DNA of 32,971 nucleotides, from contig JAFGRW010000091.1 of assembly GCA_016934935.1 (NCBI GenBank), positions 1-32,971 on the forward strand, in the 5' to 3' direction. Made by a program: the position numbers and the translations under genes. A model generated the notes under the pieces. It did no database searches. It had not been told where the DNA came from and worked only from the letters and a program-made list of their open reading frames with translations. Positions 8,514 to 9,328 of the stretch are shown piece by piece; within the stretch, counting starts at the first letter, position 1; each line of letters opens with the position of its first letter. The DNA is from Spirochaetota bacterium. GTDB taxonomy: Bacteria; Spirochaetota; UBA4802; JAFGJZ01.

Positions 8514-8536
8514 TAATACAAAGTTTTGTGGAAATA

Positions 8537-8568
8537 TATAAAAGCCGGGCTTAAGCCCGGCTTTTATA
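8537..8568. terminator. 32-bp palindromic terminator after the carboxylase
   Basis: The half TATAAAAGCCGGGCTT is followed by its exact reverse complement, giving a GC core flanked by A/T. The end of the 3' arm supplies CTTTTATATTCCTTTT. It starts 24 bases after the carboxylase stop and would work on either strand. Confidence 0.85.
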
Positions 8569-8748
8569 TTCCTTTTGGTAACTCAATAAAATGAAGTATA
8601 AGGTGATCGGTAAAAATTTAGTCTGACTCGTCTTTTCTTTCAGAACATAACAGCTATGAAATTTTTCGGTATCTTCAAGAAGTTTGAAGTTTAACAGATT
8701 AATACAACATATTGGTTTTAGTTTATTGTAAATTTATGATTCAAGGAT

Positions 8749-8804: not shown

Positions 8805-8828
8805 TTACGTCTATATATATAGACGTAA
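8805..8828. promoter_or_regulatory. Perfect 24-bp palindrome, probable operator
   Basis: The half TTACGTCTATAT is followed by its exact reverse complement. Within it ACGTCT (8807-8812) and AGACGT (8821-8826) are inverted around an 8-bp AT run. It ends 3 bases before the AAGGAGG ribosome-binding site of the next gene. RHH repressors such as MetJ bind paired short sites containing AGACGT, so autoregulation by the downstream protein is a natural hypothesis. As RNA it could also hide the ribosome-binding site. Confidence 0.65.
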
Positions 8829-8845
8829 AATAAGGAGGAAAAAAA

Positions 8846-9328
8846 ATGGAAAACAGTGATTTTAGGACATCTATTGATGTAGAGTTGGTCAGCCTGGAAA
8901 GAATTGAAAAATACGCAAAAGAGCATAACATGGGAATATCGGATGTTCTCAATGCAGTTTTAGACAGATATGCAAAGAAATTGGCTGATAAGCCAAAATA
9001 CAATAGTCGTCTTCTTAAGTATTTGGAACGGGGTACAGAATATAGATCTGTTCATATCAGATTATCCAGTATTTCATGTAAACGATTAAGAGATGTGTGT
9101 TCTCAATATTGTTATAGTCTTTCGTACATGCTGTCTCTTGCAATGCGACAATTTGATGAGTTTATGAATGGGGTATTTGAGTTTGTACGTCCGTCTTTTC
9201 ACGCTTCTTTTTCTACCAGCTTCTTCGGGTTCCCTTATTTTATCAACTATTGGGGACTACCACTATTTGAAGATCAATTTCAGCATACTGGACAAGAAAC
9301 CGGAAGACAGCTTGTTTTATTGGAATAA
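8846..9328 (+). CDS. Putative tandem ribbon-helix-helix DNA-binding protein
   Basis: This is a 160-aa protein with a strong start (AAGGAGG, 7 bases before ATG). I do not recognise a named family. Residues about 6-44 (FRTSIDVELVSLERIEKYAK onward) fit a beta-strand plus two helices of the RHH/CopG-MetJ-Arc fold. Residues about 66-105 (YRSVHIRLSSISCKRLRDVC onward) show the same pattern: strand, helix, turn, helix, with matching lengths. One chain may thus be a pseudo-dimer. The last 50 residues are rich in Phe, Tyr, Trp and Ser (SFHASFSTSFFGFPYFINYW) with no motif I recognise. No toxin-like gene is adjacent. The palindrome upstream suggests a self-regulating repressor; other targets are unknown. 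The RHH call rests on pattern, not a profile search. Confidence 0.6.
   Translation: MENSDFRTSIDVELVSLERIEKYAKEHNMGISDVLNAVLDRYAKKLADKPKYNSRLLKYLERGTEYRSVHIRLSSISCKRLRDVCSQYCYSLSYMLSLAMRQFDEFMNGVFEFVRPSFHASFSTSFFGFPYFINYWGLPLFEDQFQHTGQETGRQLVLLE

Follow-up and report, generated by a model that had tools for sequence, protein, structure and literature searches.

A predicted single-chain tandem ribbon-helix-helix protein of a many-copy spirochaete family and the palindrome at its putative promoter

The locus

The window is the whole 32,971-nt stretch of contig JAFGRW010000091.1 (assembly GCA_016934935.1) from a Spirochaetota bacterium. It contains a gene for a 160-residue protein with two predicted ribbon-helix-helix (RHH) units in one chain, preceded by a perfect 24-bp palindrome. 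The gene lies beside a biotin carboxylase/carboxyltransferase gene and a convergent ROK-family gene. This candidate autorepressor and its family are described here. The genome of the window gene is called G000 and its congener G001; L-numbers denote loci, and W is the window copy.

8834..8838, plus strand: Shine-Dalgarno sequence GGAGG, upstream of the open reading frame (ORF) 8846-9328
8846..9328, plus strand: ORF of the tandem RHH protein, 160 aa, with ATG at 8846 and stop at 9328

Predicted fold

The AlphaFold2 (AF2) model of the window protein has a pLDDT of 84.6 and comprises two RHH units, followed by a beta hairpin and a low-confidence tail.

8861..8986, plus strand: RHH unit 1, residues 6-47 (strand 6-13; helices 14-26 and 31-47), from AF2 and a CopG match in the sequence-profile search
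9041..9166, plus strand: RHH unit 2, residues 66-107 (strand 66-73; helices 75-88, 92-100 and 103-107), from AF2 and a weak CopG-family match (9kkd, E 0.075)
9203..9250, plus strand: predicted C-terminal beta hairpin, residues 120-135, from AF2
9272..9325, plus strand: low-confidence tail, residues 143-160, from AF2; residues 144-160 are the fastest-evolving among paralogues

The paired strand-helix-helix units, two in the model, place the protein by prediction in the RHH (MetJ/Arc) superfamily, among single-chain tandem proteins of the TraY, AvtR and DndE type. The first-pass annotation had aligned the two units by eye and called for a structure prediction. Both RHH folds are present in the confident model, with the correction that each unit spans about 42 residues and not 39. 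The best solved matches in a structural comparison are F-plasmid TraY, which ranks first, and AvtR.

A covalent RHH pseudo-dimer was also held to be unusual, which is not borne out. F TraY, DndE and AvtR are already described as single-chain tandem RHH proteins in PMC12117103, PMC10853773 and PMC5569661, and the window architecture is of a known kind, not new. What is unusual is a strongly conserved family that exists in many copies, lacks a partner and has a cis element of its own.

The individual systems differ from the window family in several respects. TraY belongs to the relaxosome (PDB 9f0y, 9f10), and its single chain has all the elements of an RHH dimer according to PMC12117103. It is a plasmid oriT accessory encoded beside a relaxase, whereas the window family lies on chromosomal contigs in many copies and has no partner gene. 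TraY is missing from the sequence-profile matches of the window protein, which in addition has the predicted C-terminal beta hairpin. A scan of 11 large proteins of the window turned up no relaxase or conjugation domain. AvtR of Acidianus filamentous virus 6 (PDB 4hv0) is a single-chain tandem RHH protein whose sites are imperfect inverted repeats, as given in PMC5569661, one figure legend of which calls AvtR a dimer, contrary to the text. It is viral and has 99 residues in the structure (PMC5425179), and so lacks the aromatic tail of the window protein. DndE and VirC2 are knotted proteins that act with partners in DNA modification or T-DNA transfer, whereas the window gene has no such partner.

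A many-copy family under purifying selection

A single-sequence search of G000 with the window protein yields 34 family matches at E<=10, and a profile search yields 34 at E<=1e-5, the window protein included in each case. Among the other copies, 25 share 54-66% identity with the window protein over most of its length. The profile search finds 15 matches in G001. Weak matches, one to four per genome, occur in 11 of 37 further genomes belonging to the same family or order; the other 26 have none. A large protein database contains 40 matching proteins, none with a precomputed Pfam domain, and those with names come from Spirochaetota or Spirochaetes bacteria. The window gene belongs to a spirochaete family, one that is related to DUF1564. 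This family is undescribed in the accessible work that joins RHH proteins with Leptospira or spirochaetes (including PMC3493377), subscription journals lying mostly outside the search. A phage or plasmid origin was rejected: tblastn matched none of 50,697 phage records and none of 72,556 plasmid records, and PADLOC gave no hit. A PHROG 'transcriptional repressor' family is matched by 18/55 family members (best E 5.7e-7), the window protein not among them.

For 23 close copies (253 pairs, one with undefined dS), dN/dS has a median of 0.094 and dS a median of 1.17; the set does not include W, L033, L034, L036 and seven partial or distant copies. By these rates the copies are old and maintained by purifying selection. 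Residues R7, T8, S9, Y66, S68, H70, I71, R72 and S74 are identical in 27/27 copies, and R7, S9, S68, H70 and R72 would face the DNA according to the RHH pattern. The predicted DNA face is therefore invariant, and the copies probably share one DNA specificity. The C-terminal residues 144-160 are the least constrained (pN 0.31, pS 0.41). The proteins of L027, L028, L029 and L031 end at Ser-Gly-stop, while most other copies continue for about 11 residues; these last residues may be dispensable.

With mechanically called ORFs of at least 100 aa on both sides, 24 copies in G000 comprise 11 antisense to both neighbours, one co-directional with both, and 12 mixed; in G001 the corresponding 14 comprise eight, none, and six. 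Where the neighbours agree in direction, 19/20 copies are antisense to them. The copies are hardly ever in operons, as expected for an insulated transcription unit.

The palindrome and the putative promoter

The palindrome ends 17 bp 5' of the ATG at 8846 and contains the following elements.

8805..8828, no strand: perfect 24-bp palindrome TTACGTCTATATATATAGACGTAA with arms of 12 and no gap, found as an inverted repeat and compared with shuffles; the likely operator
8805..8812, plus strand: left half-site TTACGTCT, common to several family promoters of G001 (TTACGTCTTC)
8816..8822, plus strand: putative -10-like TATATAG within the palindrome, aligning with TATATAG of many paralogue promoters
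8821..8828, minus strand: right half-site, the inverted copy AGACGTAA, not conserved in paralogues

An arm of 12 is attained by 1/20,000 dinucleotide shuffles of the 75-bp upstream region of the gene. In the 33-kb window, the only other inverted repeat with an arm of at least 12 and a gap of up to 6 is a 34-mer at 8536..8569 on the plus strand, a terminator-like palindromic hairpin of 34 bp 3' of the upstream gene. The search for further 24-bp sites suggested by the first-pass annotation shows that TTACGTCTATATATATAGACGTAA is single-copy in the 3.75-Mb assembly (89% complete), even with up to 3 mismatches allowed. The same annotation had placed a perfect palindrome between a candidate promoter and the ribosome-binding site. 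The palindrome is real by the shuffle comparison, but its position needs revision: in the paralogue alignment it covers the putative -10 and is not 3' of the promoter.

A CGT-centred cis element in relatives

Most G000 copies have a conserved upstream block, TTTAACAAAAC..CAGTATACATATATAG..GGAGG, in alignment. A CGT-centred element is typical in 22 relatives of other genera and in the 15 copies from G001, for example ATTCGTATA, TTCGTTGTAA and TTACGTCTTCA. The form [TA]CGT[AT] is present at 62-22 bp upstream in 17/22 other-genus relatives and 9/15 G001 copies, versus 3/63 other genes of the same loci, whose starts were mechanically assigned. Taken together, 26/37 versus 3/63 gives a Fisher P of 2.8e-12, the paralogues not being independent. 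After shuffling, the 22 sequences contain it in 2.8 cases on average and in 7 at most, the 15 in 2.2 and 6. Counted by start position it occurs in 28/37, with a median of -41, and in 10/14 clusters at 50% identity. The bare CGT occurs in 18/22 and 14/15, versus 12/63 (P 3.5e-11). This conservation 5' of the relatives' genes fits autoregulation, and a TTCGTATA-like site is a candidate operator for the order to which the window belongs.

The left arm of the window palindrome, TTACGTCT, is the G001 form of the CGT element, and the right arm is its inverted copy. The palindrome can therefore be read as two CGT sites (CGT N12 ACG) around the putative -10.

Some upstream regions depart from the usual spacing. 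At L031 the family promoter lies about 180 bp further upstream, displaced by sequence that is partly also found near L019, L022 and L026. In L099 of G001 a promoter-like site precedes the start codon by about 190 bp.

Proposed autorepression

On balance it is likely that the window protein represses its own promoter via the 24-bp palindrome that covers the putative -10. One chain would form a ready-made RHH dimer. Its beta strands 6-13 and 66-73, which differ from each other, would be inserted in the major groove of a short, asymmetric site centred on CGT. A site of this kind is present in most relatives from other genomes, roughly 40 bp 5' of the start codon. In the window copy, two CGT sites inverted around the putative -10 could place two molecules side by side, and RNA polymerase would then be excluded. 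Close paralogues would presumably bind each other's promoters as well.

Besides the mechanically assigned starts of the control genes, several observations weigh against autorepression through the palindrome. A scan with the sigma-70 consensus found no promoter above threshold at the palindrome, and the window promoter is thus putative, deduced from paralogue conservation. The sequence-profile search of the window protein matches CopG at E 0.0012, but its top row is a designed helical repeat protein at E 0.00098, so these E-values are weak. Most close G000 paralogues read CAGTATACATATATAG or similar, and have lost the CGT. A CGT N9-16 ACG dyad occurs in 4/22 distant relatives and 0/15 G001 copies, versus 1/63 controls (P 0.015 for the first set alone). 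A strong palindrome, one for which no shuffle of 500 is as long, is found in only 4/28 tested G000 upstream regions (W, L010, L026 and L030, the last upstream of the core) and in 0/15 from G001. A covarying promoter dyad among the paralogues was rejected, the observed mean being reached in 617/5000 permutations. With 24/28 and 15/15 copies lacking a strong palindrome and arms that do not covary, the palindrome is not supported as an operator of the family at large.

A regulon outside the family was likewise not found by motif searches, with the exception of one UPF0149-like gene with a family-type promoter. With up to 3 mismatches, TACGTCTTCATTTATAG has 18 matches in each of the two genomes, versus 29 and 21 for the reversed control; its two best matches are 5' of G001 family genes. 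The pattern TTWWACAAAAN{7,15}CMGTNTA has 15 matches versus 0: 12 before family copies, one before the UPF0149-like gene, and two where no gene is evident. This UPF0149-like gene (L122:1563-2201; 24.5 bits, cut-off 25) carries the promoter CCAGTTTATATATACAG.

Bacterial repressors are usually one gene with targets. This spirochaete has dozens of old, selectively maintained copies of a putative single-chain repressor, with an invariant predicted DNA face, no recurrent partner and hardly any regulon visible outside the family.

Alternative explanations

The strongest rival to autorepression through the palindrome, although itself unlikely, holds that only the asymmetric CGT element is functional. 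In the window, L010 and L026, mutation would have produced the perfect symmetry as a by-product, without gain for the protein: template switching would have copied one arm onto the other. Each palindrome is peculiar to its copy, and their sequences are unrelated. In every case one arm is similar to the family site, and the other departs from the sibling sequence there. A pseudo-dimer with two different strands, moreover, need not read a symmetric site. Against this, the local site is repeated in inverted form as the second arm in all three copies, each time on the promoter, and the CGT..ACG dyad recurs in 4/22 distant relatives.

A broader proposal is improbable. The family might be its own regulon, in which every copy has the same specificity and every copy's promoter binds all of them. 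Its sites across the chromosome, at which loci would be buffered or bridged, and not any outside targets, would be the reason for keeping such a distributed, dosage-compensated system. Among spirochaetes there would have been two or more expansions, one of them here and one in DUF1564.

Slightly more doubtful still is the possibility that the gene is cargo of a selfish or mobile unit, with self-repression limiting the copy number. The 34 and 15 matches in two congeners would agree with this. In G001 the carboxylase and ROK genes are adjacent, with 514 bp between the aligned ends versus 1222, and the family gene is absent. Most close copies share just about 65-90 bp of upstream sequence and the ORF, some pairs up to about 240 bp upstream. 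However, the median dS and dN/dS given above indicate old, maintained duplicates. A comparison of 126 flank ORFs (70 aa or longer) from 33 paralogue loci found no protein that recurs in more than 2 loci, and hence no common transposase. The window locus is also the one informative synteny site, since the flanks of L012 are on different contigs in G001 and not syntenic.

There is a slim chance that the proteins organise the chromosome in the manner of MatP, which binds matS: dozens of copies with a single specificity would occupy many scattered sites, the family's own promoters among them. MatP is the top Pfam and NCBIfam match of the window protein, though below threshold: E-values are 0.015-0.025, and the scores are 16.1 bits against a cut-off of 24 (Pfam) and 14.7 against 165 (NCBIfam). 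The predicted DNA face identical in 27 copies would suit this role. So would the 14-bp hairpin motif CTGGCTAACAATCCAG, which is genus-specific among 39 genomes and occurs 38 times in one congener and 24 times in the other, at some sites in or around family genes. The promoter element, however, differs from this motif, a hypothetical target of the protein.

An orphan antitoxin or a TraY-like conjugation accessory is very improbable, even though RHH antitoxins and TraY have the same fold. The absence of a toxin partner had been noted before and is confirmed: the neighbours are the carboxylase and ROK genes, no toxin or relaxase domain is present in the 11 large window proteins scanned, no adjacent partner recurs over the 33 loci, and the antisense orientation in 19/20 cases is at odds with operons.

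The proposed link to methionine or S-adenosylmethionine sensing through a MetJ-like protein can practically be dismissed: AGACGT, the core of the MetJ box, and ACGTCT occur in the palindrome, and the L013 paralogue is convergent to a metK-like gene (recognised by eye), but the contiguous 8-bp MetJ box AGACGTCT is absent from the palindrome by reading, Pfam and NCBIfam scans of the window protein gave no MetJ family match, no methionine-related domain was found in the 11 large window proteins, and many distant relatives have TTCGTATA-like sites and not the MetJ box.

The related family DUF1564

DUF1564 (PF07600), presumably known mainly from Leptospira, is homologous to the window family at profile level. 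An hhalign comparison with an 18-sequence DUF1564 alignment gives a probability of 91.3% and E 9.5e-7 over 96 columns, covering both RHH units and a shared YQ linker. The window protein itself scores 14.1 bits, below the gathering cut-off of 25, and DUF1564 has no match in G000 at E<=0.001. In the AF2 model of one DUF1564 member, which is of modest confidence (pLDDT 64.6), two strand-helix-helix units are seen. Based on the profile homology and this model, DUF1564 is probably a sister tandem-RHH family. It scores above cut-off in 15/198 genomes of the phylum, with at least 17 matches in six of them, and is thus similar to the window family in its many copies per genome. Unlike the window family's relatives, DUF1564 genes lack the CGT element upstream (1/18). 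Among the DUF1564 genes L147-L178, several have a different upstream motif, read by eye as GCGCA ... ACCTANTATTAGT, right before the assigned start codon. No paper naming DUF1564 was found in the literature searched, and this uncharacterised family gains a predicted fold and a testable function.

Hairpin motif of the genus and minor observations

The hairpin motif, searched as TGGCTAASAANCCA, has its 38 sites in G000 and 24 in G001 as exact matches, and none in the 37 other genomes of the family and order; examples lie at L075:588-684, L139:1764-2003 and L130:1534-1763. It is solitary or forms tandem arrays between genes, with a spacing that is often about 20 or 41 bp. One outer stem pair covaries (0/1000 shuffles), and most other flanking pairs do not. 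With up to one mismatch, the motif also occurs within some G001 family genes (C3, C27) at about -102, +136 and +440. CTGGCTAASAANCCAG, or a sequence close to it, lies within many family genes or at their ends; two of its variants flank the half copy L037. The idea of an integron-like gene cassette was rejected, as CTGGCTAASAANCCAG is also found in gene-free tandem intergenic arrays, and the tandem RHH architecture also occurs in relatives from genomes without the motif. A related hairpin is present in the window at 8981..8996. An array of four to five sites (one mismatch allowed) lies between two divergent genes, a pair that by eye is alike in both species.

In the G001 gap between the carboxylase and ROK genes (L113, G001:C57), about four tandem copies of an approximately 80-bp unit with GCCTTCGGCGG are seen by eye. 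Window positions 8572-8730 share 79% identity with L114:594-753, a segment of the PD-(D/E)XK transposase-like gene (PF12784) upstream of one G001 family copy. Transposase-like genes of PF04754 are located upstream of two other family copies, L018 and L024.
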